Shown here: positions 12,783 to 46,523 of the stretch, piece by piece
Layout: each line of letters opens with the position of its first letter
How positions within the stretch are numbered: the stretch's first letter is position 1
Assembly: GCA_021812985.1 (NCBI GenBank)
Contig: JAKAMG010000023.1
Coordinates: forward strand, 8,820 to 61,156
Direction of reading: 5' to 3'
Length of the DNA: 52,337 nucleotides
DNA from: Bacteroidota bacterium
GTDB lineage: Bacteria > Bacteroidota > Ignavibacteria > Kryptoniales > JAKASW01
The notes under the pieces: generated by a model
Databases searched by the model: none
The model's input: only the letters and a program-made list of their open reading frames with translations
What the model was told of the DNA's origin: nothing
Translations under genes and position numbers: made by a program

Positions 12783-13664
12783 ATGAGCAGAGTTTATATC
12801 GGCGTCGATTTCGGAGGCACAAAGATAATGACCGGTGCGATGACCGAGAAGGGCGAGATCGTTTGCGAGCCAGTCAAGGTCCCGACACAGGGTCAGGACG
12901 CGCCGGAGCGGATCATCGCGAGGGTCACTGATTCCATTGAGGAGGTCGCGAAAAGGACCGGCCTTGTCATTGATGATATTGGTGGAATAGGCATGGGTGT
13001 CACCGGCCCGATCGACATAAAGAACGGGAGGATACTTGAATGCCCGCAGCTCCCGACGCTCCATTTCTATCCTCTCAGGAAAATTATAGAAGAGCGCTTC
13101 CGGCGTCCCGTTTTCATGAACAATGACGCGAACTGCCTGATTTACGGCGAGACTTTGTACGGCAGCGGCGTCGGGAAGAGCAATGTAGTCGGGTTTACTC
13201 TCGGCACCGGTGTCGGATGCGCGATAATCATCAACGGAAAGATCTTTGAGGGGCATACGGAATCGGCAGGCGAAATCTGGCCATCACCGTATGGAAAGGG
13301 GACGATAGAGGACCTGGTATCCGGCGCCGGAATTTCAAGGATGTACGAGGAGTTGTCGGGCAACCGCAAATCGGCTCTTGACATTTCACGTCTCGCGGAG
13401 GCGGGTGACCGCAACGCGATTACGACATGGAAACAGTTCGGCGAACACCTGTCGGTCGCAATCTCATGGGTCGTGAACGTCATCGATCCGGAAATCGTGA
13501 TACTCGGAGGATCCATTTCAAACGCGTTCGATCTCTTCTCGCCCTCGATGGAGGAACACTTCCGGAAGCACGTTTGTCCGACACCCGCGGAAAAAACAAA
13601 GATCGTCCGTGGCCAGCTCGGTCCCAACGCAGGTTTCATTGGAGCCGCGGCGCTGGCGCTATGA
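12783..13664 (+). CDS. ROK-family sugar kinase
   Basis: A 293-residue cytoplasmic kinase. It opens with GVDFGGTKI, the ATP phosphate-binding motif. GVTGPID precedes the NNDANC segment with the catalytic Asp115, and GFTLGTGVGCAI follows. ROK enzymes phosphorylate glucose, GlcNAc, ManNAc or related sugars. The usual zinc motif (GH followed by CxCGxxGC) is missing: residues 157-181 read GHTESAGEIW and then a Cys-free stretch. This occurs in some ROK subfamilies and changes substrate expectations. Position after the SIS isomerase and near the AGE epimerase and NagA suggests it makes the 6-phosphate of GlcNAc or ManNAc imported by the symporter. A GGGAGG site supports the start. Confidence 0.85.
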   Translation: MSRVYIGVDFGGTKIMTGAMTEKGEIVCEPVKVPTQGQDAPERIIARVTDSIEEVAKRTGLVIDDIGGIGMGVTGPIDIKNGRILECPQLPTLHFYPLRKIIEERFRRPVFMNNDANCLIYGETLYGSGVGKSNVVGFTLGTGVGCAIIINGKIFEGHTESAGEIWPSPYGKGTIEDLVSGAGISRMYEELSGNRKSALDISRLAEAGDRNAITTWKQFGEHLSVAISWVVNVIDPEIVILGGSISNAFDLFSPSMEEHFRKHVCPTPAEKTKIVRGQLGPNAGFIGAAALAL

Positions 13665-13680
13665 AGAGAAGTAAAGCGCC

Positions 13681-13698
13681 AAGGCTCAGTCGCCTTTT
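13681..13698 (+). terminator. Short hairpin with T-run after the ROK kinase gene
   Basis: AAGGC (13681-13685) and GCCTT (13692-13696) enclose a six-base loop, and the run continues TT. This is a small terminator candidate between the kinase operon and the TonB receptor gene, 17 bases after the kinase stop. The stem is only five pairs, so read-through is likely. Confidence 0.35.
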
Positions 13699-13756
13699 CC
13701 TGGAAAGGGAATGTGCGGTCGTAATTTTCGCAAAGCGATTAACCAAGGAGATTGTA

Positions 13757-16669
13757 ATGAACAAAAGAATCACGAGCATGCTCACGATTTTCGGTCTTCT
13801 CCTTTCCTTGAATCTCGGGGCAGTGCATGCCGGACAGAACGCGACTTTGCATGGACGAGTTACAGACGTGCATTCGGGAGACCCGCTCCCCGGAGCGACT
13901 GTGTACATCGTCGGCACGAGCCTCGGTGCCTCAACCGATCTCAACGGAGCATATACGATTGTCAACGTCCCTCCTGGTAGCTACACCATGCGAACCACAT
14001 ACATTGGCTACAAGACAATCGTCGTCCACGTAAGAGCGGCCGCTGGAGAACTGGTCAGGGAGGATGTCAAACTGGAAGCCGTCGGAGTCCAGGGAAGGGA
14101 AGTTGTGGTGACAGCGCAGGCAGCCGGCCAGAACGCGGCGATCAATCAGCAGCTTGCATCCGACCAGATAGTAAACGTAGTCTCGGCAGCAAAGATACAG
14201 GAACTTCCGGACGCAAACGCTGCGGAGTCTGTCGGCAGGCTGCCTGGGGTTTCAGTCCTCAGAAGCGGCGGCGAAGCATACGCCGTCGTGATACGCGGTT
14301 TGCAGCCGAAATACAATCAGGTCACTATAGACGGCGTGAAGATGGGGTCCTCCAGCTCAAGCAGTGACTACACGAATCTCAGCATGATTTCCTCGAATAT
14401 GCTCGGTGGCATTGAAGTCTTCAAGACGATTTCACCCGATATGAACGCCAACGTTATCGGCGGTGTCGTCAATTTTCAGATGCGCGAGGCGCAGGTCGAG
14501 AAGCCGGGGGTCCCGCAAATCAGTCTCGTCGCGCAGGGGGGCTACAACGCCCTACCCGACGCTTACAACAAATTCAACAATTATAAATACGTCGGTACGA
14601 TCGAAGACCGTTTCTTCGGGGATCGCCTCGGCGTGTTTGCTCAGGCTGATGTCGAAAGGATCAACCTGAGTTCCAACGAGCTCGGGGCCTCCTACGGGGA
14701 GTACAATAACACGCTGACCCAGTACGTCACCAACAGTTTGAACCTTTACGACATTCCGAGGGACAGAAGGCGATACAACGGGGCCCTGGTTCTCGACTAC
14801 AAGCTGCCAGAAGGATCGATCAAGCTTACAAATTTCGTTAATACCGGAACGACAAATGCGACGACCTATAGTGAGTCGTTTGATCTGACCAGCAATATTC
14901 GCTACTACGGAGTTGCCAACTCTAATTCCACCTTGAGCAATATTGTGGACATTCTCGATTTCAAACAGCAGCTCTCGATCTTCAGGGTAAATCTGACGCT
15001 CTCGCATGTGTACTCTTCGACCAGCAGTCCAAACAGCTGGAACGCAAACTTCCAGCAGACGCAGGCAGGGCTCGATCAGTTCACCAACAAGCCGGAGGTA
15101 AATCCTTTGGCAGTGCCTGTAGCGGCCAACAACGACATCACGAACGCCTCACTCTACCAGTTCAACGTCACCAACAGTTTCTACTGGCAGCGGGCCCTGG
15201 ACGCGAAGCTCGATTTGAGCACTAGCGTCAACATTGCTTCCGACGTGACGGCCGAAATCAAATTCGGTGGTGATTACAAGCATTTGATCAGGTCTTACAC
15301 GACAGATGTTCTCAACGGAACTCTGATCGGCAGCAATGTGGCGCAGTTCGTCGCCCCTTATTTCAAGCTGCCGGCGGATGCCGCCAAGATGCAATACTGG
15401 GTTGATCCCAATTTCAAGTTCGGAACTTTCTTGAACGGGAACTACAAGATGGTATCGCCTCTAAATTTCGGAATGTTCTCGCAATTGCTGAACATACTCA
15501 ACTCCAACGTTGACAATTATGCGAAACAGAGCCAGCAGGCGTGGTACGGCGTCAACACGGAAGCGTCGATAACGAATAACTACAGCGGTTATGAGAACAC
15601 AAGCGCTTTTTACCTCATGACGGTTCTGAAGCTAGGTCAGCAGCTGACCCTCATCCCGGGCGTCCGGTATCAGAATCTCGAGACTATCTACACGGCCCCT
15701 CGCGGATTTACAAGCGCCTTGTCATACTTCACCTATAACTACTACGACACGACGGTAACGCAGAATCACGGTTACTGGCTTCCCGACGTGTCTTTGAACT
15801 ACAAGCCGCTTTCGTGGCTGGGCATCAGGCTCGCATATTCGAACACTCTCGCTTATCCGGATTTCAACACCATCACTCCCCGCATCAACGTCGGGTTGAG
15901 CAACTCGATCTCATGGAACAACTTTGCGCTGATTCCCGGACGATCTTCAAACTATGATTTCGCCGTCTCGGTTTATAATGATGCGATCGGTTTGTTTACT
16001 GTGGATCCATTTCTCAAGCAAATCAGCAACCTGATTTATTCGTGGTCATACTGGGTTACGGGTACAAAGGCCTTACAGTACATCCCCGCCAGTCTGCCGG
16101 GTACTCCGCCAAGCCCGTATCAGTCTTATCAGATTAGCACGTACGTTAACAATCCTTACGTAATAAACGATTACGGAGTCGAATTGGATTGGCAGACGCA
16201 CTTCTGGTATCTCCCCGGGGTCCTGTCGGGTGTGGTATTCGGTGCGAACTACACGCACATCTTTTCCAAGGCTCAGTATCCATACACTCTCACGAAGATC
16301 TCCAGCCGCAGCGTTCAGTATGTCGACACATCGTACACGGATCGGCTGATCGACCAGCCTGATGACATTGTCAATCTGACCTTGGGATTCGACTACCGAA
16401 GTTTCTCGGCCAGGGTGGCTTACCTCTACGAGAGCAACGTGTTTTCAGGTGCGAATTTTTGGCCGCAGCTGAGATCGTATTCCCCGATTTACAGGCGGTG
16501 GGACTTTGCTGCCAAGCAGACACTCCCATGGTATGGGCTGGAATTGTATTTGGATCTAAACAACCTCAACGGTGCGAACAATGTCAGCGTCATTCGTGCG
16601 GCCCAGGTTCCAATCTCGGAGCAGGATTACGGCATGACTGCTGACATCGGCATCAGGTGGAAATTATAG
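13757..16669 (+). CDS. TonB-dependent outer-membrane receptor with carboxypeptidase-regulatory-like domain
   Basis: A 970-residue outer-membrane protein. Residues 1-25 are a signal peptide ending in HAG. Residues about 28-110 are a CarboxypepD_reg-like domain (GRVTDVHSGDPLPGATVYIVGT, then DLNGAYTIVNVPPGSYT, split here at residue borders). The plug follows at about 115-245 with ELPDANAAESVGRLPGVSVLR, VVIRGLQPKYNQVTIDG and FKTISPDMNANVIGGVVNF. These plug motifs resemble the Xanthomonas/Caulobacter-type receptors (TIGR01782) more than SusC. The remainder is a long beta-barrel ending in DIGIRWKL with a terminal aromatic/hydrophobic strand. ATG 13757 has AAGGAG upstream; the open frame back to 13427 overlaps the kinase gene and is rejected. 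It would import oligosaccharides with TonB energy. No SusD gene follows. Confidence 0.9.
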   Translation: MNKRITSMLTIFGLLLSLNLGAVHAGQNATLHGRVTDVHSGDPLPGATVYIVGTSLGASTDLNGAYTIVNVPPGSYTMRTTYIGYKTIVVHVRAAAGELVREDVKLEAVGVQGREVVVTAQAAGQNAAINQQLASDQIVNVVSAAKIQELPDANAAESVGRLPGVSVLRSGGEAYAVVIRGLQPKYNQVTIDGVKMGSSSSSSDYTNLSMISSNMLGGIEVFKTISPDMNANVIGGVVNFQMREAQVEKPGVPQISLVAQGGYNALPDAYNKFNNYKYVGTIEDRFFGDRLGVFAQADVERINLSSNELGASYGEYNNTLTQYVTNSLNLYDIPRDRRRYNGALVLDYKLPEGSIKLTNFVNTGTTNATTYSESFDLTSNIRYYGVANSNSTLSNIVDILDFKQQLSIFRVNLTLSHVYSSTSSPNSWNANFQQTQAGLDQFTNKPEVNPLAVPVAANNDITNASLYQFNVTNSFYWQRALDAKLDLSTSVNIASDVTAEIKFGGDYKHLIRSYTTDVLNGTLIGSNVAQFVAPYFKLPADAAKMQYWVDPNFKFGTFLNGNYKMVSPLNFGMFSQLLNILNSNVDNYAKQSQQAWYGVNTEASITNNYSGYENTSAFYLMTVLKLGQQLTLIPGVRYQNLETIYTAPRGFTSALSYFTYNYYDTTVTQNHGYWLPDVSLNYKPLSWLGIRLAYSNTLAYPDFNTITPRINVGLSNSISWNNFALIPGRSSNYDFAVSVYNDAIGLFTVDPFLKQISNLIYSWSYWVTGTKALQYIPASLPGTPPSPYQSYQISTYVNNPYVINDYGVELDWQTHFWYLPGVLSGVVFGANYTHIFSKAQYPYTLTKISSRSVQYVDTSYTDRLIDQPDDIVNLTLGFDYRSFSARVAYLYESNVFSGANFWPQLRSYSPIYRRWDFAAKQTLPWYGLELYLDLNNLNGANNVSVIRAAQVPISEQDYGMTADIGIRWKL

Positions 16670-18746: not shown

Positions 18747-21413
18747 ATGAGAACTGCGTTTAGGTTACCGAATTTGTTGTTGCCCGCACGCTGGATGAGT
18801 CTTGTCGTGCTTGTTTCATTCATGGGACTGTTGAGCGAGCCGGCATTTTCCCAGGCGGTGTTCTCATCACCCGTTTCATTGGCGGCCTATGCCACAGACG
18901 CGAACGGTAACCTTTACGTTTGGGGGCAGGACAACTATCTCCATCCAACAGTAAACGCGACTACAACCCAGGACCTTGCGCCGGTCAGAGTGGCATTCCC
19001 GAGCGGTGTAACGTCGTGGGTCTCTGCCTCGGCAGGACTATATCATTCGCTCGCGCTTGGCAACAATGGAGTTGTGTATGCATGGGGATACAACGGCGCG
19101 GGGCAACTGGGTAATGGCACCACAGCGAGTTCAGATACGCTTGTGAAGGTAAAGCTTCCGGCAGGCGTTACGGCCACGGCCATAGCCTGCGGAGTTTCAC
19201 ACAGCCTGGCGCTCGGAAGCGACGGTAATGTCTACGCCTGGGGGGACAATGCGTACGGCGAGCTGGGAAACGGGACCACCGCAAACTCTGATATTCCCGT
19301 CAAGGTCAATTTGCCCGTGGGATTCGCGCCCGCGAAAATATATGCGTACGCCTACAACAACTATGTAATGGGAACAGACGGTAGCGTCTACGCATGGGGT
19401 CCAAATGGGCAGGGACAGTTTGGACTCGGCAATGTCACAGGTCAACCGACCCCCGTCCAACTGCCGCTTCCGACCGGAGTGACCAAGTGGATCGGCGTCT
19501 ATGGAGGATACTATTTTACGTTATTCCAGGGGAACGACGGAAATCTCTACTCGGCGGGTTATAATGACTTTGGCCAACTGGGCGATGGCACTACGACCGC
19601 GAGGACGACCTTTGTCAAGGCAAACAAGCCTGCCGGCGTGACGTCATGGAAAGCGCTCTCCTGTACCGGAAGCTCAGTGTTCGGCATCGCCGACAACGAC
19701 ACTCTATATGCCTGGGGTTACGGCGGTTCGGGAGAAATGGGAAACGGTATCGGAGGTACTCCGGGAAGAATCAACACAGTGCCTGTGAAAGTCGAGTTGC
19801 CGGCAGGAGTAACTGCCAGAGCCGTTGCGGGGTACAGATTTGACGGAGTCGCTCTGGGAAGTGATAACTACTACTATGCATGGGGCCAGGGAACAGAAGG
19901 AGAACTCGGCAACGGCGGAAACGTAAGCTCTTATGTCCCTGTCAAAGTCATTAACCTCGTCCAGATTGAGCCGGGTATCCCTAACCTTCTTTCGCCCACG
20001 AACGGCGATACCGGCGTATCAACTTCACCGATATTGAAATGGAACGCGGCTCCGCAAGCTGCCAGCTACCAGGTCCAGTTGTCGACCGATCCGACATTCC
20101 ATACGGATATAATGGTAAATGATTCCGCCCTTACGGATACCGTCGACACCTTGTCCGGCATTGGAAGCAGCTCAATTTACTACTGGAGAGTCAGATCCTA
20201 CAACAACGGAGTCTTTAGCGCGTACTCCAGCGCAGACACTTTCACGACCGTTGTCGAACCTCCCTCCGCGCCGTCGATCGTCTCTCCGGCGAACGACGCG
20301 GTTAATCTTCCTGCTGTCGACACGCTGGTCTGCCGCAAAGCCGCTGGCGCAGCCAAGTATCATTGGGAGTTATCAACGAATTCTGCTTTCTCAACTTTTG
20401 AAGTGAACGACTCGACAGTAGACACGACGAGGGCCGTTAAGCTGTCGGCAGGCCAGAAATATTACTGGAGAGTATCGGCCGTCAACCTGAGCGGACCGAG
20501 CGCATTCGCCGGGCCGGACTCCTTCACTGTGATGGCCGCCCCCGCGTCATCCCCGATCCTCATCTCGCCGGTGAACAACGCGTCTGACACGCGCGCGGAC
20601 ACGCTTGTGCTAGCGTGGAGCAATGTACAGGGAGCGTCAGGATATGAGTGCCAGATTTCAGAGGATCCGACATTCTCTTCCCTGGTATATACGTCCGATT
20701 CGACGGCGGACACTATCTTCACGGCGATATCACTGCAAAATCTGCAGAAGTACTACTGGAGGGTGCTCGCTTACAACATCGGCGGGGCTTCAGGATTCTC
20801 CCTGACCGATTCATTCACGACTGTTGTTGCCGTTCCGCGCAGGCCGCACCTCGTCTCTCCATTCCTCTCGGCACATGTTACCAGACAGGTTACGCTGACG
20901 TGGAACGAGTCACCATCGGCGACGAGCTATACGCTCCAGGTAGCCTCCGACCAGCTCTTCCGCACTATCATAGTCGACACGACGTGCGCTGATACTTCCG
21001 TCTCTCTGCCTGTGGTATTGCAGGCGAGCACCGACTATTACTGGCGAGTCAGCGCGTCAAATGCCGGTGGGTCGAGCGCCTACTCGGTGCAGGGAACATT
21101 TACGACGGGAACCGGGATAGATGCCCTAAACGAGTCTAATGGTGTTCCTAAGGAGTTCGCCCTTTACCGGAACTATCCGAATCCGTTCAACCCCACTACG
21201 GTCATTCAATATGATGTCCCCAAGGAAGCTCAGGTGACGATCGGGGTCTATAACACGCTCGGTCAGAAGGTGGCGACGCTTGTCAATGAAAGGGAGTCAG
21301 CCGGTAGATACTCGGTCGAGTTCGACGGCTCCAGATTTTCCAGCGGACTTTACTTCTTCCGCATGGCTGCCGGTTCATTCGTGAAGGTTCAGAAGATGAT
21401 GCTGGTTAAGTGA
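18747..21413 (+). CDS. Secreted RCC1-type propeller with four FnIII-like modules and T9SS tail
   Basis: An 888-residue protein. A signal peptide is followed by EPAFSQ near residue 36. Residues about 40-400 carry seven RCC1-type repeats with the signature Y-x-W-G-x-N-x-x-G-Q-L-G-N-G-T; examples start near 57, 109, 161, 213, 266, 319 and 375. This is enough for a closed seven-bladed propeller. Four fibronectin III-like modules follow (about 408-500, 505-596, 600-692, 697-788), each with a YYWRV strand. Residues about 805-888 are a type A T9SS tail (NYPNPFNPTT, KMMLVK). No catalytic site is evident. Surface binding of a glycan or another protein is the likely job. It is closely related along its full length to the protein at 26150. 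The gap before it is 194 bases and mostly terminator plus an AT-rich leader; the GGTGGG site is weak. Confidence 0.85.
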   Translation: MRTAFRLPNLLLPARWMSLVVLVSFMGLLSEPAFSQAVFSSPVSLAAYATDANGNLYVWGQDNYLHPTVNATTTQDLAPVRVAFPSGVTSWVSASAGLYHSLALGNNGVVYAWGYNGAGQLGNGTTASSDTLVKVKLPAGVTATAIACGVSHSLALGSDGNVYAWGDNAYGELGNGTTANSDIPVKVNLPVGFAPAKIYAYAYNNYVMGTDGSVYAWGPNGQGQFGLGNVTGQPTPVQLPLPTGVTKWIGVYGGYYFTLFQGNDGNLYSAGYNDFGQLGDGTTTARTTFVKANKPAGVTSWKALSCTGSSVFGIADNDTLYAWGYGGSGEMGNGIGGTPGRINTVPVKVELPAGVTARAVAGYRFDGVALGSDNYYYAWGQGTEGELGNGGNVSSYVPVKVINLVQIEPGIPNLLSPTNGDTGVSTSPILKWNAAPQAASYQVQLSTDPTFHTDIMVNDSALTDTVDTLSGIGSSSIYYWRVRSYNNGVFSAYSSADTFTTVVEPPSAPSIVSPANDAVNLPAVDTLVCRKAAGAAKYHWELSTNSAFSTFEVNDSTVDTTRAVKLSAGQKYYWRVSAVNLSGPSAFAGPDSFTVMAAPASSPILISPVNNASDTRADTLVLAWSNVQGASGYECQISEDPTFSSLVYTSDSTADTIFTAISLQNLQKYYWRVLAYNIGGASGFSLTDSFTTVVAVPRRPHLVSPFLSAHVTRQVTLTWNESPSATSYTLQVASDQLFRTIIVDTTCADTSVSLPVVLQASTDYYWRVSASNAGGSSAYSVQGTFTTGTGIDALNESNGVPKEFALYRNYPNPFNPTTVIQYDVPKEAQVTIGVYNTLGQKVATLVNERESAGRYSVEFDGSRFSSGLYFFRMAAGSFVKVQKMMLVK

Positions 21414-23546: not shown

Positions 23547-23639
23547 TCTTTCATCAAGTCGAGTGGAGGGAAATCTTTTCCCCTTTTTAACAATCTGCCG
23601 AACCAAGAATCCAGGGAATCTAAGAGCTTCGTGATTTTC

Positions 23640-25982
23640 ATGAACAAGTTGGTCTCCAGTTTAAATCCGATGTTGCCAAAGTCAGTGGTGGTTATGGCCC
23701 TGCTAACCGGATCGGCGTTCGCGCAGCAAGTGTTCTCCTCCTCAAGCTCCTTTGCCTCCTACGCGATTGACGCAGACGGAAATCTTTACACCTGGGGAGA
23801 AGACGAATACCTCCATACCGTCACTTCGAGTTCGCTGGCGCAGGACCTGACCCCCGCCAAAGTTGGATTTCCGGCAGGCGTGACCTCCTGGCTATCGGTG
23901 GCGGCGGGACACGTCCACACCCTGGCAATAGGGAACGATGGAGATATTTATTCGTGGGGTGACAACGAGTACGGACAGCTTGGCAACGGCTCGCTCGTCA
24001 GCTCAGACACTCTGGTAAAGGTCGTCCTTCCAACCGGCGTTGCTGCAAGACAGGCCTCGTGCGGCTACTGGCACAGTCTCGCTCTTTGCAGCGACGGAAA
24101 CGTCTACGCCTGGGGAGAAAACAACAACGGCCAGCTGGGGAACGGGACGACAACCAATTCGGACATCCCTGTTAAAGTAGATCTCCCTGCTGGGTTTACT
24201 CCTGTCTCTGTTTGCGCCGGCTGGTACTACAGTTTCGCGCTGGGTGCTGACGGAACTCTTTACGCCTGGGGTGGAAATGTGCAGGGTCAGTTGGGCCTTG
24301 GAAATACGACCAACTACTCGATTCCAGTCGAAGTTCCTTTTCCTGCCGGCGTGACAAAGTGGACCGGAGTCTATGGAGGGATCTATTTTGCCGCGGCGAT
24401 GGGCAACGATGGAAACCTTTATACTTCGGGAACAGTCGGTCAGACAAATTACGGCGAAGCGGGCAATGGCAGTACTACGGGCTCGGACTCTCTAGTAAAG
24501 GCGAACCTGCCTCCGGCAGTCACCGGTTGGAACGAGATTGCCTGCACCGGTAGTTCGGTCCTTGCGATCGGTAGCAACGACACGCTTTACGCGTGGGGAT
24601 ACGGCGGCTCCGGCGAAATGGGGAACGGGAGTTCTTTGGGCACCAACCCATCGGCCGTCAAGGTCGCACTTCCTCCCGGTGTGCTGGCGACGTCCATTGC
24701 GGCGGGCCGGAATCACGGCCTTGCCATCGGCAGCGACGGGAACATCTATACGTGGGGTCAGAACGCCCAAGGTCAGCTGGGCAATAACAGCATAAAGAAT
24801 TCCTCCGTCCCGGTTCAGATACTGCTTAACTACGCGACCCAGTCTTCCGGCGTAAGATTGATATCGGTGATACCCGGATGGACCGACCCTGCCATCGAGA
24901 CAGTTCATGGGCCCAGCATTGCAGTTTACGATCCTAAGATCGACACGCTTAACAAACTGGTTCTCTTCCTTGTAGGAACGGGAGGCAGCGCGACTCCGAC
25001 GTGGACCACGGATAGCATATTTGCCTCGATGGGCTACTACGCCGTCACTCTTGATTATGAAAACAACGTCGTCGCCGCGAGTCTCGGCACAGACTCGGAC
25101 ACTGCAGCGTTTGGGAATTACCGGGACGAGATCGTGACCGGGGCTCAGGTCAGCAGCGCGGTGAGCGTGGACAGCGCTAATTCGATACTGAACAGGCTCA
25201 CGAAGCTCCTCGTATATCTCGAACAAACAGATACGGCTGGCGCGTGGGGTCAATTTGTCCAGAACAATCAGCCACTATGGAGCCGCATAATCGTAGCCGG
25301 ACATTCTCAAGGGTCGGGTCACGCCGCATATATAGGTAAGATGTATGATGTGAGCAGGGTCCTCATGTTCTCGGGTCCGCAGGATTACATGAGTGCTTAC
25401 GACCGGCCGGCTCCGTGGCAGTACGACAAGGGAGCCACCCCGCCGACAAGCTATTTTGCATTCCTGCATCAGAACGACCCGTACAACGTAAACCATCAGG
25501 TCGCCAATTGCATGGCGCTAATGAATACTCAACGCCCCGCTACTCTCTCGAATGTCAGTCCAGGGAACACAATAACCGGCAATTGGAGAATACTCATAAC
25601 GGACATATCGACGAACTCGCCACACGCGTCAACGATACTTCCCGAATTTTCCAATGTATGGAATTTTATGCTTACTGCTCCGCTTGGCGTGGATGCTGTG
25701 GCTGAAACGAGAGTCCCGTTGAAATTCAATTTGATGAACAATTATCCGAATCCGTTCAATCCTTCGACGACGATAGAGGCGAATCTGAGCACGGCCGGGG
25801 GGATGAGTCTGAGAATATATGACACGCTTGGCCGGTTGGTGAAGGTGGTCGACGAGGGTTTCAAGGCGCCTGGCGCGTACAGGTACAATGTTAACATGGA
25901 GAGCTACGCGAGCGGAGTTTACTTCTATAGGCTTCGACAGGGAACCATGTCTGTAACGAAGAAGATGATCCTCCTCAAGTAG
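23640..25982 (+). CDS. Secreted RCC1 propeller fused to an alpha/beta hydrolase, with T9SS tail
   Basis: A 780-residue protein. A signal peptide ends near FAQQ. Residues about 37-395 hold seven RCC1-type repeats (YxWGxNxxGQLGNG), as in its neighbours. Residues about 404-680 are not FnIII but an alpha/beta hydrolase: FLVGTGGSA, then AGHSQGSGH with the nucleophile Ser in GHSQG near residue 556, SGPQDYM, HQNDPYN (probable acid) and SPHAST (probable His). The hydrolase part aligns with the separate protein at 45606. Residues about 693-780 are a type A T9SS tail (NYPNPFNPST, KKMILLK). The enzyme could be an esterase or a peptidase tethered by the propeller to its target. Two starts are possible, GTG 23631 and ATG 23640; I prefer the ATG. 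The ribosome-binding site is weak. Confidence 0.85.
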   Translation: MNKLVSSLNPMLPKSVVVMALLTGSAFAQQVFSSSSSFASYAIDADGNLYTWGEDEYLHTVTSSSLAQDLTPAKVGFPAGVTSWLSVAAGHVHTLAIGNDGDIYSWGDNEYGQLGNGSLVSSDTLVKVVLPTGVAARQASCGYWHSLALCSDGNVYAWGENNNGQLGNGTTTNSDIPVKVDLPAGFTPVSVCAGWYYSFALGADGTLYAWGGNVQGQLGLGNTTNYSIPVEVPFPAGVTKWTGVYGGIYFAAAMGNDGNLYTSGTVGQTNYGEAGNGSTTGSDSLVKANLPPAVTGWNEIACTGSSVLAIGSNDTLYAWGYGGSGEMGNGSSLGTNPSAVKVALPPGVLATSIAAGRNHGLAIGSDGNIYTWGQNAQGQLGNNSIKNSSVPVQILLNYATQSSGVRLISVIPGWTDPAIETVHGPSIAVYDPKIDTLNKLVLFLVGTGGSATPTWTTDSIFASMGYYAVTLDYENNVVAASLGTDSDTAAFGNYRDEIVTGAQVSSAVSVDSANSILNRLTKLLVYLEQTDTAGAWGQFVQNNQPLWSRIIVAGHSQGSGHAAYIGKMYDVSRVLMFSGPQDYMSAYDRPAPWQYDKGATPPTSYFAFLHQNDPYNVNHQVANCMALMNTQRPATLSNVSPGNTITGNWRILITDISTNSPHASTILPEFSNVWNFMLTAPLGVDAVAETRVPLKFNLMNNYPNPFNPSTTIEANLSTAGGMSLRIYDTLGRLVKVVDEGFKAPGAYRYNVNMESYASGVYFYRLRQGTMSVTKKMILLK

Positions 25983-26149: not shown

Positions 26150-28843
26150 ATGAAAAAAGTTAAGACTGCATCGTGGATGCAGGCCTCAAGTTGGAGAGGA
26201 GCGCTTTTCGCGTTCCTCCTTTCCGCCTCCCTTCTGGGAAGGACAGCAATCGCTCAGAACGTCTATACGTCACCCCAGGGTTTTGCGTCATACGCCTTGG
26301 GTGCCGATGGAGTTCTGCATGCGTGGGGAGATGATCAGTACATGCACACGATAGCTACCGGAGCGGCCGTTCAGGATTCTGTTCCCATAGTCATTCCTCC
26401 GCCGAACGGTGTGGCAGGCTGGACTGATGTCGCAACCGGATATTTCTTCACCATTGCGATTGGTACCGACGGGAATGTGTACAGTTGGGGCACTAACAAC
26501 TTCGGTCAGCTGGGTAATGGAACAACCACGAGTTCAAATACTCCCGTTGAGGTCCAACTTCCGGCCGGAGTAACCGCCAAACAGGTCTCCGCCGCGTGGA
26601 CGCATAGTCTCGCGCTTGGTAGCGACGGCAACGTGTATGCCTGGGGAGGAAACCAGTACGGTCAGTTGGGAGACAGCACTAAGGGTGATACTGCTAAGAT
26701 TCCTATTAAGGTAAAGCTTCCTGCTGGATTCACGCCTGTGAAGGTGTTCGCCTCGTTTTATCAGAGTGCGGCCCTTGGTTCAGACGGAAGTCTATACACT
26801 TGGGGCTCCAATGGATTTGGTCAACTGGCCCTTGGAAACACGACCAATCAACTCCTTCCTGTAAAGGTCGCATTCCCATCGGGTGTCACGCAATGGAAAG
26901 ACATCAACGGCGGGCTTTACTGGACGCTTGCGCTGGGAGACGATGGAAATCTTTACTCATGCGGCTCGAATAGTCAGGGCCAATTGGGAAACGGCACCAC
27001 GACTAATTCAACCAGCTTTGTCCTCGTCAACAAGCCTGCGGGGGTCACAAGCTGGAAGACTGCAGGGTGTGCGGCAAGCACGGTGTTGGCGATAGCTAAT
27101 AACGATTCCCTTTACGCATGGGGGTATAATGGGAATGGAGAAATGGGTAACGGTTTGAGCGGCATTGGCATAAACAAAATCCCGGTCGCGACTCTACTTC
27201 CGTCAGGCGTGACTGCAAAGTCTGTCTCCGGAGGAAGAAATCACGCCCTTGCCGTCGGCAGCGATAACTACTATTACGCCTGGGGACAGGGAGTTTATGG
27301 ACAGCTCGGAACGGACAGCCTTAAGAACTCCAGCGTTCCTTTGCGTGTGTACGGGGTTCTCCAGAATCCTCCTTCCGTTCCAGCTTTGACTTCACCCGCG
27401 AACAACGCGGTGGACCAACCGACAGCGTTGACGCTGGCCTGGACATCCGCGACTACAGAGGCGGGTTACCAGTGTCAGGTCTCCACCGATCCGACGTTCG
27501 CTACCGGCATCGTCGCCAATGATTCCGGCCTTGCAGTACTGGCAGACACGCTTAAGTCGCTCGGTTACAGCACGAAATACTACTGGCGTGTGCGCTCATA
27601 CGACAACGGTGTGCTCGGCGCATATTCCGTGACCGACAGCTTCACTACAGTCATGCTTCCCCCCGGGCCGACGGCGCAAGTATGGCCGGCAAGCGGCGCG
27701 ACGGACCAGCCTGCTGTTGACTCGCTGAAATGCGCCACAGCGACCGGCGCGACGCAGTACCACTGGCAGGTTTCCACTGATTTGACCTTTTCAACTTTTG
27801 TCGTGAATGATTCCACGATGGACACCGTGAACGTAGTCTCCAATCTCACGGCAAGCACAAAGTACTACTGGCGAGTCCAGGCTGTGAACCCCGGTGGCGT
27901 GAGCTCATTTGCGGGTCCTGATTCATTCACCGTGATGGCTCTGCCGTCAGTACCTGTCACCGCCGCGCCTTTGAACGGTGCCAATTTCGAGCGCGCAGAC
28001 ACGCTCACGCTGATGTGGCAATCTGCGGCTAACGCCGTTGCATATGGAGTGCAGGTTTCCGATACGATCTCCTTCTCCAGGTTCGTCGTCAACGATTCGA
28101 CGACAGACACGATACAGGTCGTCACAAAGCTTAACAATCTAACGAAGTATTACTGGCGCGTCCTCGCTTACAACTTTGGAGGGGCCAGCGTGTACAGCCC
28201 GATCGACTCCTTCACGACGAGGATTGCGATCCCGGTCACGCCAGGTCTCGTGTATCCTAAGCTGTCGACGGTGAGCATTCCTAGGGAGGCGACCTTCCAG
28301 TGGAGACCGGCCTCGCGCGCTGACAAGTACAAGATTCAGGTCGCCACGAACTCCCAGACCTATAGCTCGGGCGATTCCATGGGTTACTTCAAGACGGCGC
28401 TCTACGACACGACCGTCGCGGATACGTTCGTGACCGTCTCGGTGCCGCTCCAGGCAAGCACTATATACTACTGGCACGTCAGCGCCATCGACACCGCCGG
28501 CATGAGCGGATTTTCAACGACATGGGAGTTCAAGACCGGAACCGGATTGACTGCCGTGACGGAAGAAGGCGGAGTCCCTAAGACATTCGCGCTTAACCAG
28601 AATTATCCAAATCCGTTTAACCCGACGACGGTCATAGGGTACAGTCTTCCGAAGGCACAGATGGTATCGCTCAGAGTCTACAACGTTCTGGGACAGGTGG
28701 TAGCCACGCTCGTTGACGGGAGGCAAAACGCCGGACACTATGAGGTTAACTTCAACGCCAACCTGTTCTCGAGCGGAGTTTACTTCTACGTTCTGAGAAC
28801 GGATAATTTCACCGCGATGCACAAGATGATGCTCTTGAAGTAA
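26150..28843 (+). CDS. Secreted RCC1-type propeller with four FnIII-like modules and T9SS tail (second copy)
   Basis: An 897-residue protein. The signal peptide ends near TAIAQ (about residue 36). Seven RCC1-type repeats span about 40-400 (NVYSWGTNNFGQLGNGT is a clear example). Four FnIII-like modules cover about 407-500, 505-596, 600-692 and 697-797, each with YYWRV or YYWHV. The T9SS tail occupies about 814-897 (NYPNPFNPTT, KMMLLK). Order, length and wording match the protein at 18747, so the two arose by duplication. The fourth module is longer here by about ten residues. ATG 26150 has AAAGGTG upstream; the frame is open back to 26021, but that extension contains the palindrome and has no signal-peptide character. 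It lacks an enzyme domain and probably binds a ligand at the surface. Confidence 0.85.
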   Translation: MKKVKTASWMQASSWRGALFAFLLSASLLGRTAIAQNVYTSPQGFASYALGADGVLHAWGDDQYMHTIATGAAVQDSVPIVIPPPNGVAGWTDVATGYFFTIAIGTDGNVYSWGTNNFGQLGNGTTTSSNTPVEVQLPAGVTAKQVSAAWTHSLALGSDGNVYAWGGNQYGQLGDSTKGDTAKIPIKVKLPAGFTPVKVFASFYQSAALGSDGSLYTWGSNGFGQLALGNTTNQLLPVKVAFPSGVTQWKDINGGLYWTLALGDDGNLYSCGSNSQGQLGNGTTTNSTSFVLVNKPAGVTSWKTAGCAASTVLAIANNDSLYAWGYNGNGEMGNGLSGIGINKIPVATLLPSGVTAKSVSGGRNHALAVGSDNYYYAWGQGVYGQLGTDSLKNSSVPLRVYGVLQNPPSVPALTSPANNAVDQPTALTLAWTSATTEAGYQCQVSTDPTFATGIVANDSGLAVLADTLKSLGYSTKYYWRVRSYDNGVLGAYSVTDSFTTVMLPPGPTAQVWPASGATDQPAVDSLKCATATGATQYHWQVSTDLTFSTFVVNDSTMDTVNVVSNLTASTKYYWRVQAVNPGGVSSFAGPDSFTVMALPSVPVTAAPLNGANFERADTLTLMWQSAANAVAYGVQVSDTISFSRFVVNDSTTDTIQVVTKLNNLTKYYWRVLAYNFGGASVYSPIDSFTTRIAIPVTPGLVYPKLSTVSIPREATFQWRPASRADKYKIQVATNSQTYSSGDSMGYFKTALYDTTVADTFVTVSVPLQASTIYYWHVSAIDTAGMSGFSTTWEFKTGTGLTAVTEEGGVPKTFALNQNYPNPFNPTTVIGYSLPKAQMVSLRVYNVLGQVVATLVDGRQNAGHYEVNFNANLFSSGVYFYVLRTDNFTAMHKMMLLK

Positions 28844-28973: not shown

Positions 28974-30470
28974 ATGACTACGATGCCTGATCGAAAGGCG
29001 CTTGAAGGCGGGATGAGGTACGGGTTCCGGCCAATGGCCGTGGCGGCCGGAGCAGCCTTGATTGTTTTTATCGCCTCCTTATATGCGAATCCTGTGACGG
29101 CCCAAACAGGAGGCATTCATAAGATTAAACACATCATTATAATAATGCAGGAGAACCGGACGTTCGATTCTTACTTCGGAACGTTTCCTGGCGCGGATGG
29201 CATTCCGATGAAGAACGGCGTCCCGACGGTCGGGATAGTGGATCCGATCACCGGTAAAATAGTCAGACCGTTCCATGACCCTGACGACAGAAATTTTGAT
29301 TCTCCCCACATGGTGGCGAACGCTTTTGAGGATATCGACGACGGCAAGATGGACGGCTTCATCAGAAGCGCGATGACTGAGTATAAGAGATTTCAAAACA
29401 TGGCTCTCTTGAAAGAGAGCAACAAAAAGCTCCGGAATTCATCGCTGAAAGAATACAAAGAGCTGATGTACACGAACAAAGGGAGACCGGTACAGAGACC
29501 TCTATACCTCGATTGTATGGGATACCACGACCAGCGCGAAATACCAAACTACTGGACCTATGCGAAGGATTTTGTGCTTCAGGATCATATGTTCGAGCCG
29601 ATACTGTCGTGGAGTTTCCCGACCCACCTCTGCATGATTTCCGCGTGGTCCGCGATAACCGAAGTTCCGGGAGACCCCTTGTCCTGCGTCACCAACCTCG
29701 ATCCTCCGGATAGAAGTGAAAAAGACACGGAGCCTTTTGCCTGGACCGACATAACGTATCTTCTGCACAAAAATCATGTAAGTTGGAAATACTATCTCGA
29801 TGAAAAGGAACTCTTGAAGAAGCCTGAGTACAATTGGATCGATATTCCGGAGGAGACTGTCCCGACCATCTGGGATATCCTGCCCGGCTTTGTGGACGTC
29901 CATGAAGATCACGAGGTGAAAAACGATGAGGTGATCGCCAACTTTTTCAAGGCCGCTAAAGAGGGCGCTCTCCCGCAGGTTTGCTGGGTAATTCCCAACT
30001 TCAAAGACTCTGAACATTCCCCGTCGCTGGTAAGCACCGGCCAGGCATTCGTCACAAGAGTCATTAACGCGATTATGAAAAGTCCCGACTGGACAAGTTC
30101 GGCAATTTTTCTTTCCTGGGACGACTGGGGCGGGTTCTACGACCACGTGGTTCCGTCCAGGGTGGATGAATTCGGCTATGGAATCCGCGTTCCGGGATTG
30201 GTGATCAGCCCTTACGCAAAGAAAGGCTATATCGATCGCCAGATCCTCTCACATGACGCGTATCTTAAATTCATAGAGGACGACTTCTGCGGCGGACAGA
30301 GAATAGATCCGAAAACCGACGGCAGGCCCGACTCGCGGCCGGATGTGCGGGAAAACGAACCGCTTCTCGGTGATCTTGTTAAAGATTTTGATTTTTCACA
30401 GACACCGAGACCGCCAATGGTTTTGCCCCCTTATCCCAAGAAGGTCGACGACCTCGGCGGAAGCCATTAA
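28974..30470 (+). CDS. Exported phosphoesterase (PF04185; phospholipase C / acid phosphatase type)
   Basis: A 498-residue protein with an N-terminal hydrophobic segment (about residues 21-43, ending VTAQ), so exported or membrane-anchored. MQENRTFDSYFGTFPGADG near residue 58 is the diagnostic start of the PF04185 family, where Glu and Asn bind the catalytic metal. WVIPNFKDSEHSPS and LSWDDWGGFYDHV carry further conserved acidic and His residues, and GIRVPGLVISPYAKKG closes the fold. Members hydrolyse phosphodiester or phosphomonoester bonds of phospholipids or other phosphate esters. No T9SS tail or twin-Arg motif is visible. It lies between RCC1 and DUF4855 genes, so removal of phosphate decorations from a glycan or lipid substrate is possible; this is inference. 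The strong AGGAGGAG site supports the start. Confidence 0.85.
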   Translation: MTTMPDRKALEGGMRYGFRPMAVAAGAALIVFIASLYANPVTAQTGGIHKIKHIIIIMQENRTFDSYFGTFPGADGIPMKNGVPTVGIVDPITGKIVRPFHDPDDRNFDSPHMVANAFEDIDDGKMDGFIRSAMTEYKRFQNMALLKESNKKLRNSSLKEYKELMYTNKGRPVQRPLYLDCMGYHDQREIPNYWTYAKDFVLQDHMFEPILSWSFPTHLCMISAWSAITEVPGDPLSCVTNLDPPDRSEKDTEPFAWTDITYLLHKNHVSWKYYLDEKELLKKPEYNWIDIPEETVPTIWDILPGFVDVHEDHEVKNDEVIANFFKAAKEGALPQVCWVIPNFKDSEHSPSLVSTGQAFVTRVINAIMKSPDWTSSAIFLSWDDWGGFYDHVVPSRVDEFGYGIRVPGLVISPYAKKGYIDRQILSHDAYLKFIEDDFCGGQRIDPKTDGRPDSRPDVRENEPLLGDLVKDFDFSQTPRPPMVLPPYPKKVDDLGGSH

Positions 30471-30557: not shown

Positions 30558-32222
30558 ATGCAAAAGTTCCCGACCCTCTTGTCGCTCATCGGCTTTGTTT
30601 TCGCATCGTCAACGTTTGCTTCCGAGCCGGCGCCCGCTCCTCCAAATGGGATGGTTGATCTTGTCTTCGGAAAAAAATATACCGCCACAAGTCTGGTCCC
30701 GATCAAGTACTCCTTCGCGCCGATGGAAGCCGGGCTGCAATTCTCGGGCGGTCTCACGGACGGCAAGATAGCATCATCGACGGACTACCATGACCACCAG
30801 TGGCAACAGTATATTCGCGGAGGAATGCGAAGCATTGTGGTCGATATGGGACAGGTAAACACGGTCCACGGGATGCGGGGAAGGTTCCTGCAGGATATCC
30901 CCCACGGAATCGACTTTCCAAGAGAGGTCGTTTATGCTCTTTCCATGGACGGGAAGCGCTGGGCGGTTGTCGGAACCGTCAAGACCGCGATATCACTGAC
31001 GGTGACAAACCCGATCGTCCAGACTTACGACCTTACGGGTCTCGATTACCGGGCGAGATACGTGAAGATGACATTCGTCGTGGACGTGTTTTCACTTGCC
31101 GACGAATTTCAGGTTTTCGGTAACCGCGGAATCGCCGACGGCGCTACCATTCCGAATGTGACTCCGCCGCCTGTCTATCCGGATAAATACTGTCCTCCCG
31201 GCTCGCCGAAAGTCGGCGGAACCAGGAATATGGTTCTCATCACCAACGGCTATTATAAAAAAGATCCGGCGATTGAGAAGAACAGCGTCGACCAGCTTCT
31301 GCCGTACGTGGGTTACATAAGCCCTTCCGGAAAGATAAAGGACATCATGTTCGACGCGGTTCTCTTCTCCGCATTCGGTGCAGCGCCTTCAGGAGGGCAG
31401 TATGGAGCCGACATAAAGAAGCCGACGGTTCTTTCCGACTGGCAGTACTATATCGATAATACCTTCATGCCCGATTATAACGTTGCGGCTTTGAACATCG
31501 CGACGGGGAAGGTGAAGAAAGCGCTCGACAAACCTTCGTACAGGGAAAAGGTCGAAATCGCGATACCGTACCCCACTCCCACCTCCAAATATTTCGGCGT
31601 GATAGACGGGAAGCCCGTCAACATGGAGAAGCTTTCGGACAGGGAGAGGCTGATAAGGTGGTACGTCGACGAGGTGTTAAGAAAATGGAAAGATGGTCAC
31701 TTCGATAACCTGAAGCTTGTCGGCATGTACTGGATCAGCGAGAAGGCCGCTTTCACAATCAACGACAGCGAGGCTGCTTTGATCAGGTACGTCGGCAGCT
31801 ATGTCAGGAGCAAGGGACTCGTCCTCGACTGGATACCCTTCATCAATGCCGAAGGATTTTACGAGTGGCACTCGCTCGGCTTCGACGCAGCTGAGATGCA
31901 GCCCAATTACTCCTTCCACAACTATTCAGTCCGGGAGCTCGGCGAGGCCGCCGATGCCTGCAGGAAGCTGGGAATGGGCATCGAACTCGAAATACATTGG
32001 GATGCTCTGAAGGTGGACAGCCTCCGTGAGAAATACTACCAGTATCTCAATTGGGGATTGAAGAAGGGCTACATGAAGGGCGCAGCTCACTCCTATTACC
32101 AGAATGCCGGCCCGGGCACTTTCTACCAGAGCTGCATGAGCAAGGATCCCGATATCAGGAAGATTTACGATAAGACTTACGACTTCATCAAAGGGAAGTA
32201 CACAGAGACTAACGTAAAGTGA
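30558..32222 (+). CDS. Exported F5/8C-like + DUF4855 protein without T9SS tail
   Basis: A 554-residue protein with a signal peptide (about residues 1-21, TFAS). The F5/8C-like part (about 31-192) and DUF4855 part (about 222-547) match the paralogues at 21533 and 46581 throughout. YWISEK (Glu395), EMQPNY and ELEIHWDAL (Glu476/Glu478) are conserved. The sequence stops at KGKYTETNVK, exactly where the other two continue into a T9SS tail. It is therefore probably periplasmic or released by another route. The GH92 start (GTG 32219) overlaps its stop as GTGA, so the two are probably co-translated. The start at ATG 30558 has only a weak AGGA site upstream. Confidence 0.8.
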   Translation: MQKFPTLLSLIGFVFASSTFASEPAPAPPNGMVDLVFGKKYTATSLVPIKYSFAPMEAGLQFSGGLTDGKIASSTDYHDHQWQQYIRGGMRSIVVDMGQVNTVHGMRGRFLQDIPHGIDFPREVVYALSMDGKRWAVVGTVKTAISLTVTNPIVQTYDLTGLDYRARYVKMTFVVDVFSLADEFQVFGNRGIADGATIPNVTPPPVYPDKYCPPGSPKVGGTRNMVLITNGYYKKDPAIEKNSVDQLLPYVGYISPSGKIKDIMFDAVLFSAFGAAPSGGQYGADIKKPTVLSDWQYYIDNTFMPDYNVAALNIATGKVKKALDKPSYREKVEIAIPYPTPTSKYFGVIDGKPVNMEKLSDRERLIRWYVDEVLRKWKDGHFDNLKLVGMYWISEKAAFTINDSEAALIRYVGSYVRSKGLVLDWIPFINAEGFYEWHSLGFDAAEMQPNYSFHNYSVRELGEAADACRKLGMGIELEIHWDALKVDSLREKYYQYLNWGLKKGYMKGAAHSYYQNAGPGTFYQSCMSKDPDIRKIYDKTYDFIKGKYTETNVK

Positions 32223-34570
32223 GAACAGTTTCATTGAGAGCGTGGCTCCACGGTGGCGGGAAATTGACGGGATTCAAGCAGAAACTCCTCGCGTCCATTC
32301 TGGTGGCGGGAACTCTTACGGCGCCTGCCTGGGCGGTGAAGAAGGACGCGGGCAGGGTCCGGCGTTATGCCGTCAGAGACTTCGCGAAATTTGTGAACCC
32401 GTTCTCGGGGACGAAGACTAATGGTGAGACTTTTCCCGGCGCTTCAGCTCCTTTCGGAATGATACAATGGAGTCCCGATACCGGGCCGGCACGGCGCCAG
32501 GCTGGATACAAGTATGGCGACTCGTTGATAACCGGATTCAGCCTCGATCGTCTCAGCGGGGCCGGTTGTCCTTACGGCGACAACTTCGGGTTCGTGCCTC
32601 TACTGAACGCGTCCGGGATCAGGCCGCCTGTGGGCCGAGCTGGTTTTCTCCTCCCGTTCTCGCACGCGAATGAAACCGCACGTCCCGGATACTACTCGGT
32701 AAAGCTGGATGACGGAATAAAAGTGGAATTGACGACGACTCAGCGTTCCGGGTTCGGGAGGTTCACCTATCCGGCCAACTGCTCGCCGACTATAGCCATC
32801 AACGCCGGGAGCAATGTCAATGGCACGAGAGACGCCTCCATCCGGATCGATCCGAAGAGCCATTCCATTAGCGGTGCCGTCACTGGCGGTCACTTCTGCG
32901 GATTCCCTGACGTCGGCACGATCTATTTCTACGCCGTCTTCAACCGTCCGTTTTCCACTTACGGGACGTGGGGGGACTCCCTACTGATGAAAGGGAGGAC
33001 CAACTCTGGAGGGAACAGCGCGGGGGCCTGGGTGACCTTTGAACCGGGAGGCGGAAAGACTGTGCTGGCCAAGGTCGCGATATCTTACGTGAGCGTGAGA
33101 AACGCCAGGCTGAACCTTGAAAAGGAGAGTCCGCTCAGCGAATTCACGTCCGGCGCTTTTGAACGAGCGGCAGCCAAAGCGGGCAGCGAGTGGAACTCCT
33201 GGCTGAACCGCATTCAGGTTTCGGGCGGGATCGATGCGGATTATAGGACGTTCTATACGATGCTTTACCATGCCCTCCTCGATCCCACGGTGTGCTCGGA
33301 CGTGAACGGAGAGTACATGGGATACGATGGTAACGTTCACGTCATACAAGATGGCCAGCCCCAGTACGCGGATTTTTCAGGCTGGGACATTTACCGGAGC
33401 GAATGTCAGCTTCTGGCCATTGTTGCACCTGACCGGGCAAGCGCGATGGCACAGTCGCTCGTCCGGGACTACAAGCAGGGGGGCGCGTTCCCAAGATGGG
33501 GCGTCCCAAACATGGACAGCGGCGTAATGATCGGAGACCCGGCCGCGGCTATGATAGCGGACTTCTATGCCTTCGGAGCGAAAAACTTCGACACGAAGGC
33601 GGCGTTGGCAGGGCTGTTGCGTGCTGCAACGGACACATCGGTTTGCGCGCGCCGCACAGGAACTTATGAACGACCGGCCCTCGCAGAATATTTGAAGCTC
33701 GGTTACGTCCCCGCGGACCAGGATGGTGGCAACGTCTCTATGACGCTCGAATACAACTCCGCCGATTTCGCTCTCTCGCAGTTCGCCGGCGCGCTCGGCG
33801 ATTCCGTCGATAGTGCCATTCTACTTCGACATGCACAATACTGGAAAAATCTCTTCAATGAACGGACGGGGCTCTTCGGAATGCGCAAACGGGATGGCAG
33901 CTGGATTCCGGCCTCCGAAGACACTGTCGACTACTTCGGCTCCAGCCAGGCATTCGTGGAGGGAAGCGGCGAGCAGTACGTCTGGATGGTCCCTTTCAAT
34001 CTGAGGGGACTCACCGATAAAATGGGCGGGAGAAAAACCGCACTGGCCCGGCTTGATACGTTTTTCACGCAAATCAATGGCGGCTTCAAGTCCAAGTATG
34101 CCTTCCTCGGCAATGAACCGTGCCTCGAGACCCCATACATCTATTGTTTCCTTGGTGAACCTTACAAAGCCCAGCGGGTCCTGCGCAAGGCGATAAACGA
34201 ATTGTACTCAGCAGCAATCGTTGCGTATCCGGGCAACGACGACCTCGGAGAGATGTCTTCATGGTACATCTTCGGCGCGCTCGGCATGTACCCGGAACTT
34301 CCGGGGTCGGATGTCCTTGTCCTCGGAAGCCCGCTCTTTCGGAAGGCCGTTCTTCATCTGGATGGCGGAGACGTGACGATAATCGGGCACGGAGCGAGCA
34401 GGAACTCGCCGTACGTGCACGCACTGACCATCGATGGCCGCAAGTGGGACAAGGCCTGGATGAGGTTTACAGACATTTCCCACGGCGCGAAAATTATGTA
34501 TGAACTCCGCAGGACTCCCGACACGAAGTGGGGGAGCGCGCCGGACGACGTACCTCCTTCGTACAACTGA
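32219..34570 (+). CDS. Exported GH92 family glycosidase (exo-alpha-mannosidase type)
   Basis: A 783-residue protein of typical GH92 length. A hydrophobic signal segment (about residues 22-38, ending APAWA) follows a basic N-terminus. VNPFSGTKTNGETFPGASAP and PFGMIQWSPDTGP are hallmark GH92 N-terminal motifs. MLYHALLDPTVCSDVNGEY and SGWDIYRSECQLLAIV mark the barrel. GNEPCLETPY (near residue 630, catalytic acid region) and PGNDDLGEMSSWYIFGALG (near 670, base region) complete the active site. The family removes alpha-linked mannose from N-glycans or mannans with calcium. No T9SS tail is present, so a periplasmic or outer-membrane location is likely. The GTG start overlaps the stop of the DUF4855 gene. 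Confidence 0.9.
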   Translation: MRTVSLRAWLHGGGKLTGFKQKLLASILVAGTLTAPAWAVKKDAGRVRRYAVRDFAKFVNPFSGTKTNGETFPGASAPFGMIQWSPDTGPARRQAGYKYGDSLITGFSLDRLSGAGCPYGDNFGFVPLLNASGIRPPVGRAGFLLPFSHANETARPGYYSVKLDDGIKVELTTTQRSGFGRFTYPANCSPTIAINAGSNVNGTRDASIRIDPKSHSISGAVTGGHFCGFPDVGTIYFYAVFNRPFSTYGTWGDSLLMKGRTNSGGNSAGAWVTFEPGGGKTVLAKVAISYVSVRNARLNLEKESPLSEFTSGAFERAAAKAGSEWNSWLNRIQVSGGIDADYRTFYTMLYHALLDPTVCSDVNGEYMGYDGNVHVIQDGQPQYADFSGWDIYRSECQLLAIVAPDRASAMAQSLVRDYKQGGAFPRWGVPNMDSGVMIGDPAAAMIADFYAFGAKNFDTKAALAGLLRAATDTSVCARRTGTYERPALAEYLKLGYVPADQDGGNVSMTLEYNSADFALSQFAGALGDSVDSAILLRHAQYWKNLFNERTGLFGMRKRDGSWIPASEDTVDYFGSSQAFVEGSGEQYVWMVPFNLRGLTDKMGGRKTALARLDTFFTQINGGFKSKYAFLGNEPCLETPYIYCFLGEPYKAQRVLRKAINELYSAAIVAYPGNDDLGEMSSWYIFGALGMYPELPGSDVLVLGSPLFRKAVLHLDGGDVTIIGHGASRNSPYVHALTIDGRKWDKAWMRFTDISHGAKIMYELRRTPDTKWGSAPDDVPPSYN

Positions 34571-45605: not shown

Positions 45606-46523
45606 ATGAGCCCCAAGAATATGATTAAAAATACTTTTGTCCTGTTGGCAGCAATTATCTTTTTCGCCGCCGGAACGCGAGCCCAGGTAAAGATTCTCCA
45701 GGTCGAGCCAGCTCTGACCGACCCGGCTATCGAGTCCGTTCACGGTCCGCACATCGCGCTCTACGATCCGAACGTCCCTTCACGCCACCTGTTGTACCTC
45801 TTCATCACCGGCACGGGCGGGAGCGCGGTCGGATCAACGCGAATGGACAGCATATTCGCGACTTGGGGATACAACGCCATCAGCGTGGATTACGAAGACA
45901 ACGTGATCGCGGTGGCAAGTGCGCACAGCCTAGACAGCACGAGCTTCGGGCGTTACCGCGACGCAATCGTCACCGGCGCGCCGGTCAGTGACCTGATCAA
46001 AGTGGATACGGCTAATTCCATCCTCAACCGGTTCCAGAAACTCCTCGTTTATCTCGCAAAGCACGATCCGGAAGGAAACTGGGGAGAGTTCCTAAAGGAC
46101 GGACAACCCGTATGGAGCAAGGTGATTGTCGGCGGGCACTCCCAGGGGGCGGGTCACGCTCCTTACATAGCGAAACTGTTCGATGTGAACAGGGTGCTGA
46201 TTTTCTCGGGTCCCCAGGACTTCATGGACGATCTGGGAAGGCCGGCGCCGTGGCAGCGGATGAAGAGTGCCACTCCTGCCTCAAGGTACTTCGCGTTCCT
46301 GGCTATGAATGATCCCTTCAACGTTAAGCACCAGATAGCAAACTGCATGGCGCTGATGCGCCTGGCGAAGCCGGATACGATGATGATACAGCCGGGAGTT
46401 CCTGTCCACGGTCACAGCCACATACTCATAAACGACATCCCGACAAAATGGCCCCACGCGTCCACTTTGTTCCCGGAGTTTGAAAACGTGTGGGCATACA
46501 TGCTGAGCGCCGACGACAAATGA
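45606..46523 (+). CDS. Exported alpha/beta hydrolase, stand-alone homologue of the RCC1-fused domain
   Basis: A 305-residue protein with a signal peptide (FVLLAAIIFFAAGTRAQ). It has an alpha/beta hydrolase core: YLFITGTGGSA, VGGHSQGAGHAPYIA with nucleophile Ser179, SGPQDFMDD, AMNDPFNV (Asp236 probable acid) and KWPHAST (His284). Almost every motif recurs in the hydrolase half of the protein at 23640, including VHGP, NSILNR, the PAPWQ segment and NCMALM. The reaction is unknown; an esterase is most likely by fold. No T9SS tail is present. The next gene is again an F5/8C-DUF4855 protein, 57 bases downstream, which repeats the pairing seen at 21533-25982. AAGGAGACAAG provides the ribosome site. 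Confidence 0.85.
   Translation: MSPKNMIKNTFVLLAAIIFFAAGTRAQVKILQVEPALTDPAIESVHGPHIALYDPNVPSRHLLYLFITGTGGSAVGSTRMDSIFATWGYNAISVDYEDNVIAVASAHSLDSTSFGRYRDAIVTGAPVSDLIKVDTANSILNRFQKLLVYLAKHDPEGNWGEFLKDGQPVWSKVIVGGHSQGAGHAPYIAKLFDVNRVLIFSGPQDFMDDLGRPAPWQRMKSATPASRYFAFLAMNDPFNVKHQIANCMALMRLAKPDTMMIQPGVPVHGHSHILINDIPTKWPHASTLFPEFENVWAYMLSADDK

Follow-up and report, generated by a model that had tools for sequence, protein, structure and literature searches.

Chains that join a propeller to an alpha/beta hydrolase are already known from the S9 peptidases. In the S9 prolyl oligopeptidases and acylaminoacyl peptidases, the hydrolase is C-terminal and an unrelated propeller gates the active site. In solved structures, the partners of RCC1 propellers are mostly proteins. 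UVR8 is a regulator and the RCC1-like protein BLIP-II is an inhibitor of beta-lactamases, a serine hydrolase target. Such propellers are widespread on the surfaces of bacteria, where, as far as we know, they have no known ligand. Literature searches turned up no paper that links RCC1 to T9SS or to polysaccharide utilization.

The DNA stretch analyzed here (the window; 52,337 nucleotides of a Bacteroidota genome) encodes a single chain with an RCC1 propeller and an alpha/beta hydrolase, in which neither the hydrolase nor the propeller is of the S9 type. The hydrolase belongs to the BPSS1187 family (NF047580), and a free copy is encoded in the same locus. No known substrate was found for this family and NF047580 carries no assigned function; in one paper on BPSS1187 the gene was used only as a PCR target.

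Architecture of the fusion protein

The open reading frame encodes 780 residues from an ATG at 23640 and ends at 25982; a GTG at 23631 is an alternative start. Its modules and the other features of the locus are collected in Table 1. An earlier note on this DNA described an RCC1 propeller fused to an alpha/beta hydrolase with a GHSQG motif, and this fusion is real. Pfam detects the RCC1 repeats (PF00415, 207.6 bits; PF25390, 295.4 bits) and NCBIfam detects NF047580 at residues 440-679 (251.7 bits; curated cut-off 125) in one open reading frame that is kept in congeners. Pfam has no match in residues 400-690.

Single-sequence structure prediction of the fusion gave a mean pLDDT of 30. An alignment-based model reached a mean pLDDT of 71, with a good propeller (mostly >90), a moderate hydrolase core and values below 50 for residues 579-631. 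Structural alignment superimposed residues 25-400 on UVR8 with Z 49.6 and an rmsd of 2.4 over 366 residues, and BLIP-II was among both the sequence and the structure relatives of the propeller (Z 24.6). Pfam, the model and the structural alignment together identify a closed RCC1-repeat propeller. UVR8 and BLIP-II share this fold but, unlike the fusion, neither has a fused hydrolase. The Foldseek and VIA-align results for the fusion concerned the propeller and barely probed the hydrolase fold; a search of solved structures with the hydrolase sequence found no relative. The linker at residues 397-403 is variable between congeners and has low model confidence, which is consistent with independently folded modules.

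The C-terminal tail scored 41.5 bits with TIGR04183 (cut-off 23) and 43.2 bits with PF18962, Por_Secre_tail (cut-off 27). The genome encodes the T9SS sortase PorU (924.8 bits, cut-off 420). A C-terminal sorting domain in the fusion and PorU in the genome class the protein as T9SS type A cargo. The tail is 65% identical to the DUF4855a/16657 type in the window and up to 71% identical to that type in congeners. Its identity is 60-64% to the congeners' fusions and 35-46% to the RCC1-FnIII neighbors. With a tail of one locus type and RCC1 repeats of another, the fusion is a mosaic of parts present in the same locus.

RCC1 repeats in the window genome are confined to three genes, the fusion and its RCC1-FnIII-tail neighbors a and b. 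The RCC1-FnIII-T9SS tail proteins of the genus resemble the fusion in their propellers (55-63% identity) and in their overall surface-protein plan, but they have no enzyme, several FnIII modules and another tail type. By reading and BLAST, the other RCC1 proteins inspected in the genus carry FnIII modules and tails. The earlier proposal that the hydrolase replaces these FnIII modules needs refining, as not all of them are replaced: the congeners' fusions retain the last FnIII between the hydrolase and the tail, and the window copy is without it. Compared with these fusions, the gap in the window copy falls cleanly between '...APL' and 'GVDAV...', and from the sequence it reads as an in-frame loss.

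Table 1. Features of the fusion gene and its locus, in window coordinates
Feature	Position	Strand	Evidence or remark
Predicted signal peptide, residues 1-28	23640..23723	+	Sequence inspection: basic n-region, hydrophobic stretch, AFA|Q
RCC1 propeller, residues 30-400	23727..24839	+	PF00415/PF25390, model pLDDT, UVR8 alignment
BPSS1187-family alpha/beta hydrolase domain, residues 403-680	24846..25679	+	NF047580; identity to free copy
T9SS type A sorting tail, residues 692-780	25713..25979	+	TIGR04183 and PF18962
Ser556 codon, putative nucleophile in GHSQG	25305..25307	+	Ser in 40/40 homologues
Asp613 codon, putative catalytic acid	25476..25478	+	Asp in 36/39 and Glu in 3/39 homologues with letters here
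His662 codon, putative catalytic base	25623..25625	+	His in 39/39 homologues with letters here
Free paralogue of 305 residues, with a hydrolase after an apparent signal peptide and neither tail nor lipobox cysteine	45606..46523	+	Sequence, BLASTP, NCBIfam
RCC1-FnIII-tail neighbor a	18747..21413	+	Propeller 57% identical to fusion's
RCC1-FnIII-tail neighbor b	26150..28843	+	Propeller 55% identical to fusion's
TonB-dependent receptor	13427..16669	+	
GH92-family enzyme	32219..34570	+	
GH20-family enzyme	48724..50775	+	

The hydrolase, its free paralogue and their locus

The free protein also belongs to the BPSS1187 family (NF047580, 246.1 bits; cut-off 125). Fused and free hydrolases both score about twice the cut-off and are the only family copies found in the 3.5 Mb genome. 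BLASTP bore out the alignment of the two that had been proposed from their motifs (54% identity over 300 aa, 344 bits, E 2e-117). This match is better than expected of any two alpha/beta hydrolases, as the fused hydrolase gave 20 bits (E 0.084) against the unrelated alpha/beta hydrolase at 50885 in the same window.

Conservation of the triad was read from an alignment of 40 homologues from Bacteroidota, Acidobacteriota and Planctomycetota. S556, D613 and H662 follow one another in the Ser-Asp-His order expected of an alpha/beta hydrolase triad, and the fused and free proteins keep the GHSQG nucleophile, the Asp and the His of their family. Judged by sequence, the triad of the fusion is intact. 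One homologue (L035:1233-2048) has a GISQG nucleophile elbow in place of GHSQG.

The setting of the fused and free pair is a glycan/amino-sugar utilization locus. It encodes GH92, GH20, two GH3, three DUF4855, DUF6259 and DUF4434 proteins, a TonB receptor and a sugar transporter. Amino-sugar catabolism genes include a GlcNAc 2-epimerase, a glucosamine-6-phosphate isomerase family protein, SIS, an amidohydrolase, a ROK family protein and a DeoR regulator. SusD (PF07980) has no match in the genome, and the locus is not classed as a SusCD-type polysaccharide utilization locus. The glycoside hydrolase neighbors fall short of proving a carbohydrate substrate for the hydrolase.

The three DUF4855 genes (21533-23497, 30558-32222 and 46581-48593) comprise two T9SS-tailed copies and one untailed copy, a set that mirrors the tailed and untailed hydrolases. 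In several separate loci of the genus (window 28974-30470; L072, L074, L078, L084), RCC1 surface-protein genes have a PF04185 phosphoesterase gene next to them or close by.

Conservation in the genus and distribution beyond it

A search of 12 further species of the genus found both the fused and the free copy in three (G002, G009, G012), the free copy alone in one (G001) and neither in the remaining eight. In the four species with both copies, the window's included, 17-20 kb separate the two genes, and the order of genes around the pair is conserved apart from some that were gained or lost. The shared order begins with a TonB receptor, a T9SS protein, RCC1-FnIII, DUF4855, the fusion and RCC1-FnIII, and runs onward through DUF4855, GH92, GH3, DUF6259, GH3, a transporter, the free hydrolase, DUF4855 and GH20. 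A remnant of the fusion was sought in G001 and not found. In G001, the site occupied in congeners by the fusion and the second RCC1-FnIII gene contains a 354-aa open reading frame (L021:3903-4967); by eye, this resembles a truncated group II intron reverse transcriptase/maturase.

Three congeners have the same in-frame fusion as the window, with 79-82% identity in the hydrolase part; one of these proteins is N-terminally cut by a contig end. In phylogenetic trees, the fusion hydrolases form one clade and the fusion propellers form one clade (100/100 each), so one fusion event fits. One ancestral fusion within the genus followed by retention fits these trees better than the 'domain swapping' suggested earlier. 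The reading of the fused and free copies as one in-genus duplication gave a p-AU of 0.40, a value that neither favors nor rejects it. Both the fused and the free copies are under purifying selection. Their dN/dS is about 0.06-0.10 (fused hydrolase), 0.06-0.07 (propeller, pairs involving G012 left out) and 0.03-0.07 (free copy); these estimates are rough, since several pairs approach saturation at synonymous sites.

Beyond the genus, the family was searched for in two samples, 395 genomes from the window's phylum and 396 from that of an acidobacterial homologue. Family members above the cut-off outside the genus are free or carry only short C-terminal extensions whose sequences read as Ig-like or T9SS-like; no RCC1 was found in the members inspected from the two samples. 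Partners of RCC1 were surveyed in long open reading frames of the sampled genomes of the window's phylum, a design in which enzymes outside Pfam escape detection. Of the Pfam families tallied for 31 long RCC1 proteins from this sample, none is enzymatic. Their partners are lectin-like, FnIII, LRR, SprB and similar modules, and 19 of the 31 have T9SS tails, a combination that suggests surface binding.

In Acidobacteriota and Planctomycetota, some free homologues have GH31, GH76, GH116, MGH1-like or rhamnosidase genes as neighbors, and others adjoin DUF5107, GlcNAc 2-epimerase and amidohydrolase genes. In two Acidobacteriota loci (L036, L041), a neighborhood of DUF5107, CBM9-like, GlcNAc 2-epimerase, amidohydrolase, hydrolase and DUF4434 genes parallels parts of the window locus. 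The free-hydrolase relatives in metagenome-assembled genomes of these two phyla (L029-L042) are 51-61% identical to the fused domain. Judging by their names, these genomes may come from common samples (there are SKS5 bins of three phyla, for instance), a hint of transfer between phyla.

Proposed roles of the propeller and the two hydrolases

The reading we favor, although tentatively, is that the fusion is a surface-mounted version of a secreted serine hydrolase, in which docking or binding falls to the propeller, and that the free copy carries out like chemistry in the periplasm. The fusion would be exported by its signal peptide, carried over the outer membrane by the T9SS through the sorting tail, and held at the surface alongside its two sister RCC1 proteins. 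There it would be active as a serine hydrolase, most probably as a carbohydrate esterase removing acyl groups from a glycan. The propeller would bind or dock the protein to a glycan or to other surface proteins, and may target the enzyme to its substrate, as the earlier note proposed. A glycan and a protein partner are equally likely targets of the propeller, because the RCC1 propellers of solved structures are mostly protein-binding. The free paralogue, predicted from its sequence to be periplasmic, would perform the same kind of chemistry on imported fragments. The earlier assignment of the two copies to surface versus periplasm is plausible, given a T9SS sortase, no SusD and RCC1 repeats at one locus only. 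The T9SS tail and PorU supply the surface route of the fusion, and the tailless free copy has what looks like a Sec signal peptide and ends with its hydrolase, but the locations themselves are predictions.

It is rather unlikely that the paralogues have diverged in function, with the fused hydrolase acting on another bond or sugar than the free copy and the propeller serving as a generic surface scaffold. There are 38 fixed differences between fused and free copies, and the stem of the fused clade is long (0.57 in the hydrolase tree). All fused copies replace W464 with M, R604 with S and P532 with T, and the aligned free copies and other subfamily members are invariant at these positions. Fixed changes at otherwise invariant positions may mean that the two copies differ in substrate; the earlier note had suggested a shared one. 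However, the triad and most conserved residues are the same in both, and the model places R604 and its neighbors with low confidence, also in relation to the active site.

More doubtful is a broader reading in which RCC1 propellers are a surface glycan-binding module of utilization loci in the genus, the window genome being without SusD. The fused hydrolase would then be the single observed instance of such a module carrying its own enzyme.

Gating of the kind seen in S9 peptidases, in which the propeller covers the active site so that small substrates alone can reach it, is improbable. The fusion has the S9 plan of a propeller and a C-terminal alpha/beta hydrolase in one chain, and acylaminoacyl peptidases align to model residues 26-686, spanning both domains, with Z of about 17. 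The rmsd of these alignments is 15-18, however, and the relative domain placement is thus unmatched. The S9 catalytic domain PF00326 has no match in P0001 or P0002 (Pfam, E 0.01), the same enzyme also occurs free in the same genome, and the propeller-hydrolase linker is variable. S9 peptidases further differ in their hydrolase family and non-RCC1 propeller, and the T9SS tail is a feature of the fusion.

Built-in regulation is quite improbable. The propeller would bind and restrain its own or a partner hydrolase, as BLIP-II does with beta-lactamases, and the presence of BLIP-II among its relatives agrees with this idea. Against it, the sister propellers at 18747 and 26150 have no attached hydrolase, and RCC1 proteins of the phylum occur without a BPSS1187-family enzyme. 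The draft state of the genome (64 contigs) could suggest that two genes were joined artificially during assembly or annotation, but this is refuted by the same in-frame fusion in three other genomes and by the fully supported propeller and hydrolase clades.

The favored reading remains a surface-mounted hydrolase with a docking propeller and a periplasmic counterpart. The fused and free twins in one glycan locus form a matched pair for finding the substrate of the hydrolase, and the same pair lets the contribution of the propeller be asked directly.
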